The notes beneath the pieces are model-generated. The model was not told the DNA's origin and ran no database searches. It saw only the letters and a list, made by a program, of their open reading frames with translations. Source: Actinomycetospora sp. (GTDB lineage Bacteria > Actinomycetota > Actinomycetes > Mycobacteriales > Pseudonocardiaceae). Taken from it: 18,480 nucleotides of DNA. The stretch covers positions 1 to 18,480 of the forward strand of contig JAICLN010000031.1 of assembly GCA_025925615.1 (NCBI GenBank), read 5' to 3'. Positions 11,132 to 18,480 of this stretch are shown one piece after another (position 1 is the first letter of the stretch; each line of letters opens with the position of its first letter). Made by a program: the position numbers and the translations under genes.

Positions 11132-12208
11132 TCAGCGCGGGGCCGGGGGCAGGATCTCGGCGAGGTCGAAGCTCACCGGCCGCTCGAGCTGGTCGTAGGT
11201 GCACGACTCGGGCTCGCGGTCGGGGCGCCACCGCACGAACTGCGTGGTGTGGCGGAACCGGTCGCCCTCGAGGTAGTCGTAGCGGACCTCGACGACGCGC
11301 TCCGGGCGCAGCGGGGTGAACGAGAGGTCCTTGCCCGCGTTCCAGCGGCTCGTCTCGTTCTTGCGCGGGGTGCGGTCGCCCGCCTCGTGCGCGGCCCAGT
11401 TCCACGGGTGCCCCTCGAAGGTCGTCACCAGCGGCTGCAGCTCGGCGAAGAGCTCCCGGCGCCGGGCCATCGTGAAGGCCCCGACGACGCCGACCGAGGC
11501 GAGCGTCCCCTCGGCGGTGTGCAGGCCCAGGAGCAGCGACCCGATCGCGTCCGGCCCGGACTTGTGCACCCGGTAGCCGGCGACGACACAGTCCGCGGTG
11601 CGCTCGTGCTTGATCTTGCTCATCACCCGCTTGTCGGGCTGGTAGCGCAGGTCGCCCTTCTTGGCGATGAGGCCGTCGAGCCCGGCGCCCTCGAAGCGCA
11701 CGAACCATTCCCGGGCCTCGTCCGCGTCCGACGTTATGGGGGTGACGTGCACCGGGGCGCGCCCGGCCGGCCCCAGCGCGTCCTCGAGGGCCGCCCGCCG
11801 CTGCGCGAACGGCCGCGGGGTCAGGTCCTCGTCGCCGAGGGCGAGCAGGTCGAAGACGACCATGCTCGCGGGCGTCTCCGCAGCCAGGAGGTTGACCCGG
11901 GAGACCGCGGGGTGGATGCGCTGCTGGAGGGCCTCGAAGTCGAGCCCGTGCCCGTCCCGGCTCGCGACGATGATCTCGCCGTCGACCACGCACCGCTGCG
12001 GCAGGTGCTCGCGCAGCGCCTCGACGACCTCGGGGAAGTAGCGGGTCATCGGCCTGGTGTTGCGGCTGCCGATCTCCACCTCGTCGCCGTCCCGGAAGAC
12101 GATCGCGCGGAACCCGTCCCACTTGGGCTCGTAGTGCTGGCCCTCCGGCACGGACTTCACGGGCTTCGCCAGCATCGGCAGCACCGGCGGCATCACGGGC
12201 AGGTCCAC
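11132..12208 (-). CDS. ligC: ATP-dependent DNA ligase, LigC type
   Basis: 358 residues. The adenylation domain contains motif I with the AMP-accepting lysine (EPKWDGFRA, about 28-36), followed by RNTRPMTRYFPE, VDGEI (motif III), VFDLLALGDEDL, EGAGLDGLIAKK (motif IV) and KIKHERTADCVV (motif V). A C-terminal OB domain (about 220-340) includes HPWNWAA, GKDLSFTPLRPERVVEVRYD and FRHTTQFVRWRPDR. Length and order match mycobacterial LigC, a small ligase linked to nucleotide-gap repair, rather than the larger LigD. The start is GTG 12208, because the residues after it (DLPVMPPVLPMLAKPV) align with the N-terminus of LigC. The open frame continues upstream, but that part overlaps the AmaP gene. CAGACT lies seven bases before the GTG and no Shine-Dalgarno is seen. 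It begins 29 bases after the AmaP stop and may also be read from that operon. Confidence 0.92.
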   Translation of the reverse strand: MDLPVMPPVLPMLAKPVKSVPEGQHYEPKWDGFRAIVFRDGDEVEIGSRNTRPMTRYFPEVVEALREHLPQRCVVDGEIIVASRDGHGLDFEALQQRIHPAVSRVNLLAAETPASMVVFDLLALGDEDLTPRPFAQRRAALEDALGPAGRAPVHVTPITSDADEAREWFVRFEGAGLDGLIAKKGDLRYQPDKRVMSKIKHERTADCVVAGYRVHKSGPDAIGSLLLGLHTAEGTLASVGVVGAFTMARRRELFAELQPLVTTFEGHPWNWAAHEAGDRTPRKNETSRWNAGKDLSFTPLRPERVVEVRYDYLEGDRFRHTTQFVRWRPDREPESCTYDQLERPVSFDLAEILPPAPR

Positions 12209-12237: not shown

Positions 12238-12840
12238 TCAGAGCACCCGCGGGGTCTTCGACGCGGCGGCGTCCAGCTCGATGCGCACCGCGGTCGGCAG
12301 CACCTCGACGGCGAAGGCCTGCCGGGCGCGCGCGAGCACCCGGCCGTCGACCTCGGCCCAGACGTCGCGCACGTCGGCCTCCTCGACCAGCCACAGCGTC
12401 ATGCGCATCGCGGGACGGCGCTCGTGGCCGACCAGCCGCACCCGCGCGCGGCTCACCCCGTCGATGGCCTCCGCGTCGCTGCGGACGGCGTCCGCGATCG
12501 CCGAGTGCTCGACGGTGAGGCGCTGCCCGGGTACCTCGGAGAGCAGCACGTCGGGGCGCGGCTCCGGGCGCAGCGAGCGGACCGCCCAGATCAGGCCGAT
12601 CACCAGCAGCACGATGCCGATGCCGACGGCGATCCAGCGTGTGGCGGTGGCGTTGGCCGTCATCCAGCCGCTGATCTGGGGATCGATGAGCGGGCGCTGG
12701 GCCCGGTAGACGCCGAAGACACCTTGGCCGAGGAGCAGGACGAGCACCGCGACGGCGAGCAGCACCAGTCCGGAGAGGAGGACGAGGGTGCGGTCGGAGG
12801 CGGTGGAGCGGGCGACGGCGGCGCGGGAGCGGCTGCTCAC
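12238..12840 (-). CDS. amaP: Alkaline shock response membrane anchor protein AmaP
   Basis: 200 residues. TM helices lie at about 19-43 and 68-88, joined by a short loop (YRAQRPLIDPQISGW). A soluble C-terminal domain (about 95-200) contains LTVEHSAIADAVRSDAEAIDGV and ARVRLVGHERRPAMRMTLWL, resembling the Asp23-like fold found at this place in AmaP proteins. AmaP tethers Asp23/Gls24 proteins to the membrane in Gram-positive bacteria. It is the last gene of the seven-gene operon, and its ATG overlaps the DUF6286 stop by four bases. Confidence 0.8.
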   Translation of the reverse strand: MSSRSRAAVARSTASDRTLVLLSGLVLLAVAVLVLLLGQGVFGVYRAQRPLIDPQISGWMTANATATRWIAVGIGIVLLVIGLIWAVRSLRPEPRPDVLLSEVPGQRLTVEHSAIADAVRSDAEAIDGVSRARVRLVGHERRPAMRMTLWLVEEADVRDVWAEVDGRVLARARQAFAVEVLPTAVRIELDAAASKTPRVL

Positions 12841-13379
12841 TTGACCCCCTTGGTGGCGGCGACGGAGACCGACACGCGCGGCCGGCGCGCGAGCGGGAGA
12901 CGGGTGAAGAGGGTGTCGATCCGCTCGCGGACCGCGGCGCGCACCTCATCGGGGGCGTCGAGGGTCCCGGCCTTGACCACGACCTTCTTCGACGACGCGA
13001 CGACGGACGCGGAGACCACGTCGGAGTGTGAGCGGACCTCGTGGCCCACCGCGCGGGCGAGCGAGCGCGGCGAGGTGGTGACCGTGACCTCGGGGACCGG
13101 ATCGGTGAGGCGGACGTCGTGGCGGCGGGCGACGAGCGGGACCAGCGCGACGAGCACCCCCACGATGCCGATGACGATCGCGACGAGGCGGACCGTCGGG
13201 GAGTCCCAGGTGACGCCGGTGAGGGCCGCCTGCCAGTCGGGCCACGGGATCACGAGCGGGGACGAGGCGGGCGCGACCCAGGCCGTGATCACCTCGAGCA
13301 GGGTGATGACGCCGATCGCGGCCACCACCAGCCCGAGCAGGGGGGAGAGCAGGCGCAGCAGGAATCGCACGGCGGTCAC
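12837..13379 (-). CDS. DUF6286 family membrane protein of the Asp23 cluster
   Basis: 180 residues. Two TM helices lie at about 7-36 and 62-84, with the short segment SSPLVIPWPDWQAALTGVTW between them. A soluble domain follows (about 95-180). DUF6286 proteins accompany Asp23/AmaP genes in Actinobacteria. The pattern of two helices followed by a small mixed domain parallels AmaP, so the two may be paralogues acting as alternative anchors. This pairing is inference. It overlaps the neighbouring genes by four bases on both sides. Confidence 0.8.
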   Translation of the reverse strand: MTAVRFLLRLLSPLLGLVVAAIGVITLLEVITAWVAPASSPLVIPWPDWQAALTGVTWDSPTVRLVAIVIGIVGVLVALVPLVARRHDVRLTDPVPEVTVTTSPRSLARAVGHEVRSHSDVVSASVVASSKKVVVKAGTLDAPDEVRAAVRERIDTLFTRLPLARRPRVSVSVAATKGVK

Positions 13380-13837
13380 TCCGTCCGTCGGGTGGGGGCC
13401 GGGGGACCGGCCGGGACGGCGAGCGCGGAGACGGTGACGTCGAGCGCCCGCACCGCGTAGCCGGTGAGGGTCTCCACGCGCTCGCGGACGTTGCCGCGGA
13501 CCGCCTCGACCGTCAGCGCGATGGGTGCCGGGTAGGCGAGCGGGACCTCGAGGCGCAGGTCCACCTGGTCGCCGTAGCCCGAGACGCGGGCGGTCGCCCC
13601 GGACTCGCCGAGGCCGACCCCGACCACCCGCCGCTCGGTGCGCACGGTGCCCTCGCTCGTGTCCGCGGCGTGCTCGGCGATCCGGCGCACCACCGAGAAG
13701 GCGATGTCGAGGCTGCCGCGCTCACCGGGGTCGGCCCGGCCGTCAGCTGGGGCCCCGGCCGCGCCGGGCGCCGAGGCCCCGTCGGAGGCTCCGGCCACCG
13801 GGACCGGCGTCGTGTCGTCGCGGGAGGGTTCGCTCAT
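13376..13837 (-). CDS. Asp23/Gls24 family envelope stress protein (second full copy)
   Basis: 153 residues. A low-complexity Ala/Gly/Asp-rich head (1-42) precedes an Asp23 domain (about 43-142). That domain includes IAFSVVRRIAEHAADTSEGT, GYGDQVDLRLEVPLAYPAPI, VRGNVRERVETLTGYAVRAL and DVTVSALAV. The usual pattern (helix, variable strand, V-x-L-x-V-x-YG region, then R-x-x-V-x-x-V-x-x-x-T-G) is visible. Asp23 proteins bind the membrane anchor AmaP and form envelope-associated oligomers. This copy is more divergent than the one at 14782-15279. Confidence 0.82.
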   Translation of the reverse strand: MSEPSRDDTTPVPVAGASDGASAPGAAGAPADGRADPGERGSLDIAFSVVRRIAEHAADTSEGTVRTERRVVGVGLGESGATARVSGYGDQVDLRLEVPLAYPAPIALTVEAVRGNVRERVETLTGYAVRALDVTVSALAVPAGPPAPTRRTE

Positions 13838-14013
13838 CGGTCGCGGCCGCGGCCGGTGAACTGGGTGAGGTCGAGCTCGCCGTCGAGGACCCGTCCGACG
13901 ACGAGGCCGAGGATGCCCAGGACGAGGGCGATGAAGAAGCCGACGAGACCGCCCGCGGCGGCGGCGACGCCGAGCAGGAGGCCGACGAACAAGCCGACCG
14001 TGGTGGCACTCAT
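13834..14013 (-). CDS. Small DUF2273-like membrane protein
   Basis: 59 residues, almost entirely hydrophobic from about 5 to 42, in two Gly-rich stretches (GLFVGLLLGVAAAAGGLVGF and FIALVLGILGLVVGRVL) that can form a two-helix hairpin. A charged tail follows (DGELDLTQFTGRGRDR). Its size, composition and place between Asp23-type genes match DUF2273 proteins of Asp23 operons. The ATG at 14013 has a consensus Shine-Dalgarno GGAGGT seven bases upstream. It has the clearest ribosome-binding site after the only non-overlapping junction of the operon, so translation may re-initiate strongly here. Confidence 0.8.
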   Translation of the reverse strand: MSATTVGLFVGLLLGVAAAAGGLVGFFIALVLGILGLVVGRVLDGELDLTQFTGRGRDR

Positions 14014-14057
14014 GGGATGGACCTCCAGGCGAGGGGCGGGTCGTGCGGGTGTGTGGG

Positions 14058-14414
14058 TCAGACGACGCGGCGGTGGCGGACGGGGCGCAGCGGCGCCCGG
14101 CCGAGCAAGCGACGGCCGGCGCGCAGCGTGCGGGGCACGACGTGGCCGGAGACCGCGACGACGGGCGCGTCCAGGCGCGGGTCGTCGTCGGGGACCGACC
14201 ACGCGGCGGGCCGCGGAGCGGGGGGCCCTGCAGCGGGGGCGGACGGGACCGCGGTGAACGGGGACCGGCCCGCGCGGAAGGCCTCGACGCCCCGGCGGAA
14301 GACCTCCGGGTCGCCGCCGACGTCCGGGTGGTGACGGCGCGCGAAGGCGCGGAACCCGGCGGCGCCGTCGAGCGGGCCGGGGCCGTCGAGGCCAGGGTCG
14401 TCGAGGGCCGTCAC
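14058..14414 (-). CDS. J-domain-like protein with HPD motif
   Basis: 118 residues. FRAFARRHHPDVGGDPEVFR with VEAFRAG right after it reads like helix II, the HPD loop and helix III of a DnaJ domain; HPD is at 29-31. Helix I is missing or very degenerate, and the remainder (60-118) is Pro-rich then strongly basic (LRAGRRLLGRAPLRPVRHRR) at the C-terminus. HPD is the residue triplet by which J-proteins stimulate Hsp70 ATPase. Whether this shortened version can do so is unknown. Its start overlaps the preceding Asp23-like gene by four bases, and 44 bases separate its stop from the DUF2273-like gene. Confidence 0.7.
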   Translation of the reverse strand: MTALDDPGLDGPGPLDGAAGFRAFARRHHPDVGGDPEVFRRGVEAFRAGRSPFTAVPSAPAAGPPAPRPAAWSVPDDDPRLDAPVVAVSGHVVPRTLRAGRRLLGRAPLRPVRHRRVV

Positions 14415-14785
14415 GGTGTCGCGCTCCCGGGCTCGACGTCGGCGATGACCACGTCGACCCGCCGTGCGCCGGTCTCGGCGGCGACGAGGGCCCGCAGCGC
14501 GTCGGCCGTGGGGTGGACCCGGGCGCCGAGCCGCAGCACGACCCCGATCCGCGTGGGCTCGTCACCCTCGCCGAGGGAGACCCCCACGAGGCGGCGCCCG
14601 GGTCGGTAGGTCGCGATCGACCCGAAGGTGCCGCCCGAGAGCCGCACCACGTCGGGGTGGGCGAGCAGCGCGTCCGCGACCCGCTCGGAGAGCGGGCCCC
14701 GGCCGGGTGCGGTCGGGTCGTGCGGGCTGGTGGCGCGCACCCCGGGCGCGGACGCCGGGATCGCGCCCGAGGGCGTGCCGGTCAC
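14411..14785 (-). CDS. Asp23-like protein, short divergent copy
   Basis: 124 residues. After a disordered head (1-30) comes LSERVADALLAHPDVVRLSG, then GGTFGSIATYRPGRRLVGVS, VVLRLGARVHPTADALRALV and RRVDVVIADVEP. The arrangement of helix, beta hairpin, strand, helix and final V-x-V strand parallels the Asp23/Gls24 fold but is shorter and lacks the V-x-YG region. Both its start and stop overlap neighbours by four bases. Assignment to the Asp23 superfamily rests on pattern and context and is less certain than for the flanking copies. Confidence 0.65.
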   Translation of the reverse strand: MTGTPSGAIPASAPGVRATSPHDPTAPGRGPLSERVADALLAHPDVVRLSGGTFGSIATYRPGRRLVGVSLGEGDEPTRIGVVLRLGARVHPTADALRALVAAETGARRVDVVIADVEPGSATP

Positions 14786-15279
14786 TCGACGCGCGAGGTC
14801 GGGGCCGGCGCGGGCTCCGGGGAGTCGTTGTCGTCGCCGGGCATGTGGATGTCGTTGACCGCGATGTTGACCTCGATGACCTCGAGCCCGGTCATCTGCT
14901 CGACGGCCCCGATCACGTTGCGGCGCACCGCGCGGGCGAGCTCGACGATCCCGGCGCCGTACTCGACGATGATGTCGAGGTCGATCGCGGCCTGCTTCTC
15001 GCCGACCTCGACCTGCACGCCCGCGGCCTGGGAGGTGCCGGTGCCGCCGGGGATGCGCTCGCGGATCGCGCCGAAGGCGCGCGAGACCCCGCCGCCCATC
15101 GAGTACACGCCCGAGACCTCGCGGGCGGCGATGCCGGCGATCTTCTGGACCACGCCGGAGGCGATGGTGGTCTTGCCCTGGCCCGAGTCGTCGGCGAGCC
15201 GGGAGGGGGTGGCCCCGCCGGTGCGCGGGGCCGTCAGGGGAGCCGAGCTCGTCACGGGGGAGTCCGAAGGGGACGTCAT
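14782..15279 (-). CDS. Asp23/Gls24 family envelope stress protein (first gene of operon)
   Basis: 165 residues. The Asp23 domain spans about 34-145: GKTTIASGVVQKIAGIAARE, VSGVYSMGGG, VQVEVGEKQAAIDLDIIVEY with Gly following, VRRNVIGAVEQMTGLEVIEV and NIAVNDIHMP. This is a textbook Asp23/Gls24 sequence with Ser/Thr/Pro-rich ends. The start is ATG 15279, preceded by GAGGAG at good spacing. An upstream in-frame start at 15396 would cross the RibD-C gene end and has no such signal. As the first gene it should follow the operon promoter in 15280-15392. The acidic tail (PGDDNDSPEP) may mediate contacts. Known relatives oligomerise and bind AmaP at the membrane. Confidence 0.92.
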   Translation of the reverse strand: MTSPSDSPVTSSAPLTAPRTGGATPSRLADDSGQGKTTIASGVVQKIAGIAAREVSGVYSMGGGVSRAFGAIRERIPGGTGTSQAAGVQVEVGEKQAAIDLDIIVEYGAGIVELARAVRRNVIGAVEQMTGLEVIEVNIAVNDIHMPGDDNDSPEPAPAPTSRVE

Positions 15280-15363
15280 GGGGGCGCTCCTCTGCGCTCG
15301 GGGACGGGCGTCGTGTGGTGAGCCATGCGACCGCCCTCTCGGGTGGCCGACTACCCGTAGGAC

Positions 15364-15397
15364 TGTCACCGCCGCGGAATCGTCACGGGATGTCACC
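15364..15397. promoter_or_regulatory. Three direct repeats of (T/C)GTCAC upstream of the Asp23 operon
   Basis: TGTCACC at 15364-15370, CGTCACG at 15381-15387 and TGTCACC at 15391-15397 lie 85-118 bases upstream of the first Asp23 start, partly over the end of the RibD-C-like gene. Spacings are 17 and 10 bases. The outer copies are identical. Direct repeats near one or two helical turns suit an activator or response regulator. Which regulator is unknown; MtrA-like sites use similar GTCAC repeats, so that is one possibility. Confidence 0.4.
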
Positions 15398-16220
15398 CGA
15401 ATGGGCTAGGCTGGGCCATCGACCGGGCCTCCTCGTCCCCGCGCGCCGTCCGGTACCGCAGGAGCAGCGCGTCGTCGTGGGCGAGGACGGACGCCAGCCG
15501 CAACGGCGCCGCGCCTGCTCCGGGAGATTCGGCAGATCCGGGAGATCCGCCGTAGCCGTCCAGGATCCGGCCGGGCCCGGCGCCCGCCAGCTGCGGGGCG
15601 AGGCTCAGGCACAGCTCGTCGACCAGGCCCGCCGCCGCGAAGGAGCCGAAGAGCGCCGGTCCGCCCTCGCAGAGCACACGGTGCAGCCCCCGCGCCCCCA
15701 GCTCCGCGAGCACCGCGCCCGGGGTCACGTCCCGCTCGCCCACGGCGACCACCTCCGCGAGGTCACCGAGCCGTTCCCCCGCCCCGGGCGCCGCGGTGGC
15801 GGTGGTGAGCAGCAGCGGCGGGACGGCGGTGTCGGTGAGCAGGGCGGCGCCGGGCGCCACGGTCGCCGTCGTCGTCACGACCGCGACCGGCGGGACCTCC
15901 GCCTGTCCCCGCTCCCGGCGCCGGGCGCGCAGCTCGGGGGAGGTGCGCACCCCGCGGTAGTCCTCGGCGCGCACCGTGCCCGCGCCGGCGACGACGACGT
16001 CGGCCAGCTCGCGCAGCAGCCCGAACACCGTCCGGTCGCCGGGCGCGTCCAGCCCGCCGGAGCGCCCGCTGGCCCCGTCGGCCACCGCGCCGTCGGCGCT
16101 GGCGACGAAGTTGACCCGGACGAACGGGCGCCGCAGGGCCGCCGGATAGGCGTAGACCCCGGCCAGCGCCGCACGGTCCAGCTCGCCCGACGGCCCGTCC
16201 GGGGGCCAGACGTGTCTCAT
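15393..16220 (-). CDS. RibD C-terminal-type (pyrimidine/dihydrofolate) reductase
   Basis: 275 residues, of the stand-alone reductase family resembling the C-terminal half of RibD. Landmarks are RPFVRVNFVASADGAVADG (about 34-52), GDRTVFGLLRELADVVVAGAGTVRAEDY (about 61-88), LCEGGPALFGSF (about 188-199) and LVDELCLSLAPQLAGAG. Relatives reduce pyrimidine or pterin intermediates with NADPH. The deaminase half of RibD is absent and no riboflavin operon is nearby, so the true substrate is open. ATG 16220 follows GGGAGGG at about eight bases; an in-frame extension to 16325 overlaps the DUF3072 gene and is rejected. Its 3' part has a 9-base tandem repeat (15522-15548). Its stop lies 113 bases upstream of the Asp23 operon. 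Confidence 0.83.
   Translation of the reverse strand: MRHVWPPDGPSGELDRAALAGVYAYPAALRRPFVRVNFVASADGAVADGASGRSGGLDAPGDRTVFGLLRELADVVVAGAGTVRAEDYRGVRTSPELRARRRERGQAEVPPVAVVTTTATVAPGAALLTDTAVPPLLLTTATAAPGAGERLGDLAEVVAVGERDVTPGAVLAELGARGLHRVLCEGGPALFGSFAAAGLVDELCLSLAPQLAGAGPGRILDGYGGSPGSAESPGAGAAPLRLASVLAHDDALLLRYRTARGDEEARSMAQPSPFG
15522..15548 (-). repeat. Three imperfect 9-base tandem repeats inside the RibD-C-like gene
   Basis: Read on the coding strand, the units are GGATCTCCC, GGATCTGCC and GAATCTCCC, encoding Gly-Ser-Pro, Gly-Ser-Ala and Glu-Ser-Pro in a surface-loop-like segment (YGGSPGSAESPGAG). All three use TCT for Ser, rare in the surrounding codon usage. This looks like a recent slippage expansion. 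Confidence 0.6.
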
Positions 16221-16242
16221 CCGCCGCACCCTCCCACCGGGG

Positions 16243-16779
16243 TCATCCGCGGCCGGCCTTCTGCTGCAGGTCGTCGATCGCCCGGGAGGCCTGGGACTTG
16301 GTGAGGTCCTTCGGCGGCTCCTCACCCGCCTGCTGGGCCAGGGTCTCGAGGTAGCTCGCCTGCGGCCCGGTCATCGGTTCCTCCCCGGTGACCCACTGGT
16401 CGGTGGGCCGCTCCACCCGGAGGGTCGAGCTCCGCTGGGCTGCGTCTCCCCGGCGGTCCGGGTTGCCCGCCGGGTCGGGCCCGGAGGACTGGAGGCGCTC
16501 GATCGCGTCCGAGGCCTGCGCCTTGGTCAGCCCCTCCGGGACGTCCTCACCCGCCTGGTGCGCCAGCGTCTCGAGGTAGCTGGCCTGCGGGCCGGTCATC
16601 GGCTCGTCCCCGGTGACCCAGTTCGCCGGGTCCTTCTCGGCCGAGGAATCGCCGTCCGGCGCCTTCACCGCGTGCGGATCCGGCGCCGTCGACGTGCGCG
16701 TGTCGGCCGTGTGACCTCCGGGGTCTTGGCCGGACGGCGTGTCGGACGGCAGACTGTCGCGCGTGTCGGTCTCACTCAT
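16243..16779 (-). CDS. Tandem DUF3072 protein
   Basis: 178 residues. A polar head (1-48, rich in Asp, Thr, Ser and Pro) precedes two DUF3072 units, at about 51-99 and 126-175. Each has the same order: W-V-T-G-(D/E)-E-P-M-T-G-P-Q-A-S-Y-L-E-T-L-A, then Q-A-G-E, then L-T-K-x-Q-A-S-x-A-I-x-x-L-Q. The end of the unit resembles a small SAP/HeH-like helical motif, but DUF3072 has no known function. The start is ATG 16779, with GGGAG seven bases upstream; the open frame continues far upstream, but there it has no family resemblance and crosses the regulatory region. A perfect SOS box lies 140 bases upstream. The gene ends 22 bases before the RibD-C-like start and may be co-transcribed with it. Confidence 0.88.
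   Translation of the reverse strand: MSETDTRDSLPSDTPSGQDPGGHTADTRTSTAPDPHAVKAPDGDSSAEKDPANWVTGDEPMTGPQASYLETLAHQAGEDVPEGLTKAQASDAIERLQSSGPDPAGNPDRRGDAAQRSSTLRVERPTDQWVTGEEPMTGPQASYLETLAQQAGEEPPKDLTKSQASRAIDDLQQKAGRG
16249..16624 (-). repeat. Internal duplication: two DUF3072 units
   Basis: The unit at about 16249-16402 repeats the unit at about 16487-16624. The strongest DNA identity is in the stretch encoding the shared M-T-G-P-Q-A-S-Y-L-E-T-L-A core. The two copies differ mainly at synonymous sites and in the acidic/Pro linker, which points to an old in-gene duplication held by selection. Confidence 0.75.
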
Positions 16780-16918
16780 GATGGCTCCCGAGGTCGTGGC
16801 CGTCGTGGGTCGTCCTGCTCGCACGGGTGATCGGATCGTCGCGGGGCGCCGTAGACGCGGCCCGCGGTGCCCCCACCGGATGGGGAGGGCCCGCGGGGGG
16901 CCCGGGTGCGCCGTGCGA

Positions 16919-16934
16919 TCGAACACCCGTTCGA
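16919..16934. promoter_or_regulatory. Perfect LexA (SOS) box
   Basis: TCGAACACCCGTTCGA matches the mycobacterial/actinobacterial SOS box consensus TCGAAC-N4-GTTCGA at all 12 fixed positions. A further A-T pair outside extends the inverted repeat to 7 bp per arm. Promoter-like hexamers touch it on both strands: TACGAT at 16935-16940 (plus) and TATCGT at 16941-16936 (minus). The minus orientation would place the box over the transcription start of the DUF3072 gene (140 bases downstream). The plus orientation would give a 500-base leader before gltB. LexA control is inferred from the match. Confidence 0.75.
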
Positions 16935-17005
16935 TACGATAAGGGCATACCCCGACACCGGAACCCCGATACCCGTCGGTCCCCGCAGATCGGGCTGCGG
17001 CACGG

Positions 17006-17091
17006 ACCCTCGGTGGACGGGGAACCACGACCCTCGGTGACAACGTCGTCACCCAGAGGTGGTCCGGTGGACCGGAGGGTGACCGGAGGGT
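17006..17091. repeat. Two pairs of complementary direct repeats in the gltB leader
   Basis: ACCCTCGGTG occurs at 17006-17015 and 17030-17039. ACCGGAGGGT occurs at 17071-17080 and 17082-17091. The second sequence is the reverse complement of ACCCTCCGGT, so each member of one pair can base-pair with each member of the other with a single bulge. In RNA this would allow alternative stems. Confidence 0.5.
17036..17053. promoter_or_regulatory. Near-perfect palindrome GGTGACAACGTCGTCACC
   Basis: Nine-base arms match at eight positions (one A/C mismatch at 17042/17047). It lies between the two repeat pairs, about 400 bases upstream of the gltB start. It could be an operator or, in RNA, a six-pair hairpin with a six-base loop. 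No known regulator is assigned. Confidence 0.4.
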
Positions 17092-17293
17092 TGCCACGAC
17101 GTGGCGATCAGCACGTTGCCGATCTCGTCCGGGCTCGTGCGCAGGGGCGTCGACACCGTTAACGTCGGGTTGCTTCGGACCACACCACTTCAGGCGTCCG
17201 CCGCTCGGGCCGGCCGTCGGTGCTCCGGCCCGACCCGGGACGCCGTCCCCCGACTCCCGCCTCCGGCCCACCCCCGCCATCCCCACCCGCACC

Positions 17294-17318
17294 GGGCGGC
17301 GGCCTCCTGCCGCCACCC
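17294..17318 (+). promoter_or_regulatory. GC-rich hairpin in the gltB leader with CTCCT loop
   Basis: GGGCGGCGGC (17294-17303) pairs with GCCGCCACCC (17309-17318), with one C-A mismatch, around the loop CTCCT (17304-17308). The loop is complementary to Shine-Dalgarno-type sequences, including the GGGAG before the gltB start about 120 bases downstream. It may be a leader-RNA element or chance structure in very GC-rich DNA. Confidence 0.3.
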
Positions 17319-17444
17319 GCCGACTCCCGGTCGCCCGCCGGAACCAGTCAGTTGCAACGCTTCCCGCAGCGCCGGTCGGCCGAGAAGGCCACACCCCCGC
17401 CGCGGAACGGCTCTCCACCACTTCGTCGACGACGGGAGGGGCAC

Positions 17445-18480
17445 GTGGCCACCACCGCCACCGGCACCAGCACGACCGGCCCGCGCGCGGGCTCCGTGCA
17501 GGGGTCGGGCCCGCAGGCCCAGGGTCTCTACGACCCCGCGCACGAGCACGACGCCTGTGGCGTCTCGTTCGTCGCCGACATCGCGGGCCGCCGCGGTCAC
17601 GACATCGTCGCCAAGGGCATCACCGCGCTGATCAACCTCGAGCACCGCGGGGCCCGCGGCGCGGAGCCCGAGACGGGCGACGGCGCCGGGATCCTCATCC
17701 AGCTCCCGGACGGCCTCTTCCGGCCGCTGCTCGCCGAGCAGGGTGTCAGCCTGCCCGCGGTCGGGCGCTACGCGGCCGGGGTGGCGTTCCTGCCCCTCGG
17801 CGACGCCGAGGCCGACGAGGCCCGCGCGATCGTCGAGCGTCTCACCGGCGAGGAGGGCCTGGAGTTCCTGACCTGGCGGGACCTGCCGACCGACCCGGAC
17901 GGGGCGGGCATCGGCCCGACGGCGCGCGAGGCCATGCCGCGCTTCTCCCAGCTGTTCGTCGGTCTGCCCGACGACGTGACCTCCGTCGTCGACACCCCCA
18001 ACGCCGGCGACGACGACGCGGGCGTCGTCCTGACCCTGGAGCGGCGGGCCTTCGCGCTGCGCAAGCGCGTGGAGCACGAGACCGGCGCGGCCGACTGTGC
18101 GACCTACTTCCCGAGCCTCTCGGGACGCACCATCGTCTACAAGGGCATGCTCGCCGAGGGCCAGCTCGCGCCGTTCTACGCCGACCTGCGCGACGAGCGG
18201 ACCACCAGCTCGCTCGCCCTGGTGCACAGCCGGTTCTCGACGAACACCTTCCCGTCCTGGAGCCTGGCCCACCCGTACCGCTACCTCGCCCACAACGGCG
18301 AGATCAACACGCTGCGCGGCAACCGCAACTGGATGACCGCGCGCGAGTCGCTCCTGTCCACGGGGGCCTTCTCGGGGACGAACTCTCCCGGCGAGGAGAT
18401 CGACCGGCTCTTCCCGATCGTGACGCCGGACGCCAGCGACTCGGCGAGCTTCGACGAGGTGCTCGAACTGCTGCACCTCG
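17445..18480 (+). CDS. gltB: Glutamate synthase large subunit, 5' part (runs off window)
   Basis: The first 345 residues are present. A 37-residue Thr/Gly-rich leader precedes Cys38 in HDACGV, the N-terminal nucleophile of class-II glutamine amidotransferases, so the leader should be removed by autoproteolysis as in other GltB proteins. Family landmarks are ALINLEHRGARG (with GDGAGI shortly after), FLPLGD, LALVHSRFSTNTFPSWSLAH, LAHNGEINTLRGNRNWM and the D-S-x-S-F-D-E-V-L-E-L-L stretch at the edge. The enzyme uses glutamine and 2-oxoglutarate to make glutamate, with GltD supplying electrons; the synthase half lies outside the window. The start GTG 17445 has GGGAGGGG a few bases upstream. The long regulatory gap before it suggests leader or operator control. 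Confidence 0.95.
   Translation, partial: MATTATGTSTTGPRAGSVQGSGPQAQGLYDPAHEHDACGVSFVADIAGRRGHDIVAKGITALINLEHRGARGAEPETGDGAGILIQLPDGLFRPLLAEQGVSLPAVGRYAAGVAFLPLGDAEADEARAIVERLTGEEGLEFLTWRDLPTDPDGAGIGPTAREAMPRFSQLFVGLPDDVTSVVDTPNAGDDDAGVVLTLERRAFALRKRVEHETGAADCATYFPSLSGRTIVYKGMLAEGQLAPFYADLRDERTTSSLALVHSRFSTNTFPSWSLAHPYRYLAHNGEINTLRGNRNWMTARESLLSTGAFSGTNSPGEEIDRLFPIVTPDASDSASFDEVLELLHL

Follow-up and report, generated by a model that had tools for sequence, protein, structure and literature searches.

The window, by which we mean the whole stretch of 18,480 nucleotides that was analysed, carries on its minus strand a DUF3072 gene followed by a gene for a RibD_C-type pyrimidine reductase; gltB, of which the window has the N-terminal part, faces away from both on the plus strand (Table 1). 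The DUF3072 protein scores 178.8 bits against PF11272, for which the Pfam cut-off is 27.5, and its two domains are encoded at 16486-16641 and 16249-16413. Two further Pfam matches, to TPR_23 (E 4.6e-4) and GemA (E 8.4e-4), stay below their cut-offs. NCBIfam gave no match to the protein up to E 0.01, and three weak matches to PHROGs are all of unknown function (best E 0.0098). A search with one 62-aa query brought up 3712 protein clusters of the family; among 50,697 phage records, one 62-aa query matched no DUF3072 protein at E 0.01. Both domains were matched in all 18 genomes of the genus, Actinomycetospora, and one domain in each of 68 other genomes of the family; two genomes of the genus (G003 and G011) have a copy that seems to be interrupted or to contain a frameshift. 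A literature search on DUF3072 and PF11272 found no paper. Searches on the LexA regulon and on LexA together with SigB/SigF or EcfG extend to titles and the beginnings of abstracts, and among the matches listed none named the family there.

The RibD_C gene comes directly after DUF3072 in every one of the 18 genomes. If the first aligned residue is taken as the start, the two genes overlap by 4 nt in 14 of these genomes; in the other four they are separated by 7 nt (twice), by 22 nt in the window and by 38 nt. We predict that it is the second gene of a DUF3072 operon. Its best NCBIfam match is NF010664, for which it scores 223.6 bits where the cut-off is 226, and a RibD_C gene was found nearby at one of 130 DUF3072 loci outside the genus. 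The mycobacterial relative Rv2671 reportedly has dihydrofolate reductase activity. Further along the window, a gene for an ATP-dependent DNA ligase (11132-12175; NF006078, 541 bits) is separated from the DUF3072 operon by a cluster encoding Asp23 and DUF6286 proteins (12238-15396), one of the DUF6286 matches being below the cut-off. DNA ligase genes likewise lie near DUF3072 in Sphingobium (L282) and Rhodococcus koreensis (L290).

Table 1. Genes and predicted regulatory elements around the SOS box of the window
Feature	Position	Strand	Remarks
RibD_C-type pyrimidine reductase gene	15393..16220	-	PF01872; 22-nt gap after DUF3072
DUF3072 gene, 178 aa	16243..16779	-	two PF11272 domains; Pfam E 1.6e-53
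Predicted LexA operator (SOS box), TCGAACACCCGTTCGA	16919..16934	.	palindromic half-sites; TCGAAC-N4-GTTCGA, 0 mismatches
Further -10-like hexamer, TATCGT; perhaps an overlapping promoter of the SigA type	16936..16941	-	TANNNT in 8/8 aligned genomes; weak
SigB/SigF-type -10, GGGTAT, predicted for DUF3072	16947..16952	-	12 nt before the box
Putative -35, GTAT	16969..16972	-	16 nt from the -10; same word in 8 genomes of the subgroup
Conserved block before gltB, CACCGTTAACGTCGGGTTGCTTCGG	17154..17178	+	mostly kept in the 8-genome alignment
gltB, glutamate synthase large subunit, N-terminal part	17445..18480	+	predicted start 17445; PF00310; NF008730 (protein part)

The original prediction had placed a complete SOS box between the tandem DUF3072 gene and gltB, touching -10-like hexamers on both strands. 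A pattern scan of the window bears this out: the box matches TCGAAC-N4-GTTCGA at every fixed base, the two neighbours are those that were named, and a -10-like hexamer is present on the plus strand (TACGAT, 16935-16940) as well as on the minus strand. The window contains three matches with at most two mismatches, compared with a mean of 0.53 in shuffled sequences, of which 4 of 200 had at least three. The genome to which the window belongs (an assembly of 3.52 Mb in 382 contigs, 59.8% complete) possesses 11 perfect boxes, that of the window included, whereas the reversed pattern used as a control does not occur in it. Across the genus there are 6 to 16 perfect boxes per genome, and the reversed pattern is missing from 16 of the 18 genomes.

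The operator word resembles that of LexA in this group. According to excerpts of a ChIP-seq study, LexA of Streptomyces venezuelae recognises tCGAAC-N4-GNNCGa, and the box of the window resembles the members of that regulon both in this word and in its place near a promoter (PMC9380542). It differs from them in that its predicted target belongs to a family without known function and that the promoter appears to be of the SigB type. The excerpts of the S. venezuelae study, which include part of its Table 1, do not name DUF3072 (PMC9380542). We also viewed the ten further perfect boxes of the window's own genome. One (L006) is some 20 nt away from a dnaE2-like gene with PHP and DNA_pol3_alpha domains, three (L009, L010 and L011) are at or near the starts of three DUF222 genes, and L004 is situated between another gene and a HEPN_SAV_6107 gene at a distance of a few hundred nt. 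L007 shares its contig with L006; the gene there had no Pfam match and reads like imuA'. The remaining four are L001, L002, L005 and L008.

A lexA gene was matched in 16 of the 18 genomes of the genus; there was no match in the window's own assembly, which is 59.8% complete, nor in that of G014, which is also incomplete. In all 16 genomes with a match, lexA is preceded by two adjoining boxes with one mismatch each, for example TCGCACACGCGTTCGA and TCGAACGCGTGTGCGA. They lie at 294-423 nt, a distance which was measured to the matched part of lexA and not to its start codon, and a divergent gene may start on their far side. At 10 of the 16 lexA loci (L291-L306) the paired boxes form one perfect 32-bp palindrome.

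The comparison proposed with the original prediction, a search for boxes upstream of DUF3072 in other actinomycetes, was carried out. DUF3072 is preceded by a perfect box in each of the 18 genomes of the genus, the window's own included, the half-sites being exact and the middle bases variable. A sample of 200 genomes of the family contained DUF3072 in 78, ten of which belong to this genus. Judged by its best match within 500 nt, the box had no mismatch at 18 of the 68 other loci, one at 25, two at 7 and at least three at 18. Boxes with at most one mismatch were thus present at 43 of 68 loci as against none of 290 control windows of 500 nt from the same loci, 22 of which had a box with two mismatches. 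Of the 20 DUF3072-bearing genera in the family sample, 17 had at least one such locus; among the genera without one were g27 (0/9) and g3 (0/5). The association becomes weaker with distance. In the order the numbers of loci with 0, 1, 2 and at least 3 mismatches were 0, 6, 6 and 5 (at most one mismatch in 6 of 17), and in the class they were 1, 13, 11 and 20 (14 of 45). These counts include L182, for which just about 35 nt of upstream sequence was available (2 mismatches), and leave out G537 (below the Pfam cut-off; the locus L165) and further matches in G235 and G575. As they run across related species, the counts do not represent independent samples.

A looser word, TCGAAC-N4-(G/A)NNCGA, was found at 18/18 loci of the genus, 27/68 of the family, 7/17 of the order and 14/45 of the class; of 1019 control windows, each 300 nt long, 4 contained it. 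Among 80 named loci, in which the same species is partly repeated, 36 had a box with at most one mismatch within 300 nt, as against 1 of 1297 control windows. If either the looser word or one mismatch is accepted, the site is regular in Lentzea (5/5), Saccharothrix (6/6) and Umezawaea (2/2), frequent in Mycobacterium (12/20) and of mixed occurrence in Amycolatopsis (5/10) and Actinokineospora (1/4); by the same measure it is absent from the loci of Rhodococcus (0/5), Nocardia (0/3), Cellulomonas (0/4) and Paractinoplanes (0/3). In Geodermatophilus (4/4) and Williamsia (2/2) it reads TCGAACACATGAGCGA, and the likely start codon is part of this sequence. Since the start codon lies within or before the box in these two genera and in a form found early in the coding sequence within the class, the match may there stem partly from coding sequence. 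A site near the gene was found at 13 of 20 mycobacterial loci. Its half-sites are kept in 12 or 13 of 13 sequences at each position and its four middle bases vary; each box starts inside a GTTT word and has GGNTAT after it, and the second half-site has GTG instead of GTT. The box follows DUF3072 across genomes, which strongly supports the gene as its target. We also noticed that a contig labelled Candidatus Melainabacteria (L218) carries an actinobacterial-looking DUF3072 gene with a one-mismatch box; the label may be wrong.

The promoter that precedes the box on the minus strand seems to be of the SigB/SigF type. In all 18 genomes of the genus a -10 word GGGTA(T/A/C) lies 8-13 nt before the box, and all 18 encode sigma factors of the SigBFG family. 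GGGTA occurs within 130 nt upstream of DUF3072 at 89 of 146 loci (148 minus L164 and L182, which have no predicted start), compared with 14 of 146 on the other strand and 157 of 2410 control windows. The GGGTA word was picked after the sequences had been viewed. The -35 was not: when the 89 promoters are aligned on GGGTA it emerges by itself, the frequency of G being 0.87 at -20 and that of T 0.76 at -17. According to excerpts of the source, promoters of the SigB homologues of Streptomyces coelicolor have a -35 of GTTT or GNNT and a GGGTAT-like -10 (PMC8346170). The DUF3072 promoters agree with this consensus in a GGG(T/A)A(T) -10 and in a -35 whose G and T are at fixed spacing and at the usual distance, and it is from the published consensus that the assignment to SigB/SigF is drawn. 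They differ in having a LexA operator built in, and their spacer is 15-16 nt if counted from the four-letter -35 word.

The TATCGT hexamer is absent at the equal offset from the other ten genomes of the genus. A PafBC-type promoter on the minus strand was also considered, as there is by eye a partial resemblance to the consensus, but this reading was not adopted. Just beyond the -35 there is an inverted repeat, CCGCAGATCGGGCTGCGG (16983-17000), without any difference among the eight aligned genomes of the genus; it is possible that it represents the site of a further regulator.

A comparable arrangement was found outside the actinobacteria. One DUF3072 protein query matched 74 plasmid records, those listed being mostly from Rhizobium, Agrobacterium, Azospirillum and Paracoccus. 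From 40 of these 74 records we took 14 alphaproteobacterial loci, picked to spread genera but including three each of Azospirillum and Rhizobium. General-stress promoters of EcfG are described, in excerpts of the source, as GGAAC-N16-CGTT, with TGTT as a reported variant of the -10 (PMC7083833). The strict form, GGAAC-N16/17-CGTT, was present no more than 250 nt from the domain at 9 of 14 loci as against 1 of 322 control windows; if TGTT is allowed the count, which has no control of its own, rises to 12 of 14. The alphaproteobacterial LexA motif, similarly excerpted, is GTTC-N7-GTTC (PMC3323433). In either orientation it was present at 11 of the 14 loci and in 1 of 130 control windows, the stretches scanned being about 220 to 380 nt long and the control windows 250 nt. 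Spacer 7 was favoured: near the start, spacers of 4 to 11 occurred 0, 1, 0, 8, 1, 0, 0 and 0 times. The last four loci had been chosen before the LexA motif was noticed, and all four possess it. The most upstream in-frame ATG was taken as the start, so that distances are unreliable for L312, L314 and L287. In Rhizobium acidisoli, R. leguminosarum, Agrobacterium and Ensifer the CGTT of the EcfG -10 falls inside the LexA motif (e.g. GAACGTTTAGAGAAC).

The pattern is not universal among these loci. The Sphingomonas locus had neither element, the LexA motif was absent from those of Sphingobium and R. gallicum, and the Paracoccus locus lacked the EcfG promoter. Two loci were not counted, namely that of the betaproteobacterium Caballeronia (L289), which had neither an EcfG promoter nor the alphaproteobacterial LexA motif, and that of Rhodococcus koreensis (L290), where the EcfG-like match was loose and the two half-sites were of mixed kind. 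Elements known from excerpts on EcfG promoters and on alphaproteobacterial LexA thus both precede alphaproteobacterial DUF3072 genes (PMC7083833, PMC3323433), although phylum, sigma family and operator are all different from those in Actinomycetospora. In other words, two phyla show the same wiring in different words.

It might be thought that a palindrome so close to a plus-strand hexamer serves the plus strand, and the original prediction had left it open whether the box controls DUF3072 or, alternatively, a damage-inducible leader of gltB or an unannotated small RNA. TACGAT does follow the box directly on the plus strand, and TA-rich words follow three other boxes of the same genome (L005, L006 and L010). 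Moreover, gltB is the other neighbour of DUF3072 at 16 of 18 loci of the genus; because of this adjacency, synteny within the genus separates nothing. In an alignment of eight genomes, the window's own included, the box lies together with the minus-strand promoter in a single conserved block. A separate block before gltB, 220 nt further on, probably belongs to the control region of gltB itself, and the stretch between the two is poorly conserved. The plus-strand hexamer conforms to TANNNT in the window only. Outside the genus, gltB was near none of 130 DUF3072 loci, of which about 1.5 kb was read on each side. Conversely, gltB was present in 40 genomes of 40 genera, and 30 loci could be read, one locus per genome, a second gltB-like match in many genomes being left out. 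Within 700 nt the window's own gltB has its perfect box, one other locus has a box with two mismatches and 28 have at least three, so no box with at most one mismatch was found before gltB in 29 other genera. An Rfam scan of 16200-18480 gave one match, far under the gathering score. On these grounds of conservation we rejected gltB or an RNA as the target, and consider control of the plus strand scarcely credible; of the two possibilities that had been raised, the one in which DUF3072 is the target stands.

A palindrome of this kind might also be read by a regulator other than LexA with a GAAC-N4-GTTC-like site, for a motif by itself cannot name its protein. This is very unlikely, however, because nearly identical words precede lexA in the genus, a perfect word lies at the dnaE2-like gene, and the alphaproteobacterial loci switch to the LexA motif of their own group, as excerpted (PMC3323433). 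A more serious alternative, which we nevertheless regard as rather unlikely, is that DUF3072 is a plain stress gene of the SigB type, whose LexA site tightens basal repression or is a relic, so that DNA damage alone hardly alters expression. The GGGTA word persists at loci without a box (e.g. L071, L079, L089 and L140), and some genera have no boxes at all. Against this alternative speak the exact half-sites around variable middle bases in the 18 genomes of the genus, the similar constancy of the mycobacterial half-sites, and a LexA motif of the appropriate kind at alphaproteobacterial loci.

Taken as a whole, the explanation that we consider quite probable is that the box serves as LexA operator for DUF3072-ribD, a minus-strand operon which is transcribed from a SigB/SigF-type promoter and subject to an AND-type gate. 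DUF3072 is likely to be a LexA target, and it is likely to be a general-stress gene too. What the sequences display is the box, the promoter-like elements, the order of the genes and the conservation of all these; LexA binding, the identity of the sigma factor, the start site and cotranscription are what we infer from them. RNA polymerase with a sigma factor of the SigB/SigF type would use GTAT-N16-GGGTAT and start on the minus strand near 16940. Because the box begins 8-13 nt past the -10, LexA would be placed across the first part of the transcript; a dimer bound at the operator would cover the early transcribed stretch and block transcription. DNA damage would lead to RecA-triggered self-cleavage of LexA and the block would be lifted. 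Consequently, high expression of DUF3072 would require that a stress sigma factor is active and that LexA is lost as well. It is this geometry that suggests an AND gate formed by the two regulators. The SigB-type promoter, the RibD_C partner and the alphaproteobacterial parallel go beyond the original prediction.

An AlphaFold model of the two-domain protein was of low confidence (pLDDT 61.8) and had no significant Foldseek match. The model of a single domain was better (pLDDT 85.4); its best structural neighbour was the C-terminal domain of Red-beta of phage lambda, with a middling Z score and a Foldseek E value of 3.5, which is not significant. In excerpts of the source, this domain is described as binding SSB and lambda exonuclease (PMC8303780). 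Both are small helical folds; DUF3072, in contrast to Red-beta, is a stand-alone protein without an annealase domain. Our boldest guess would be that DUF3072 acts at single-stranded DNA through SSB.

DUF3072 is a family of unknown function with thousands of members, for which the response to DNA damage now offers a testable place. The recurrence of the arrangement in alphaproteobacteria implies that the protein would be useful when general stress is accompanied by DNA damage. That a general-stress sigma factor and LexA are combined in two phyla by means of different words argues for selection on when the protein is made. The comparison suggests that the family may answer both DNA damage and general stress, which would make DUF3072 a candidate link between the general stress response and the SOS response.
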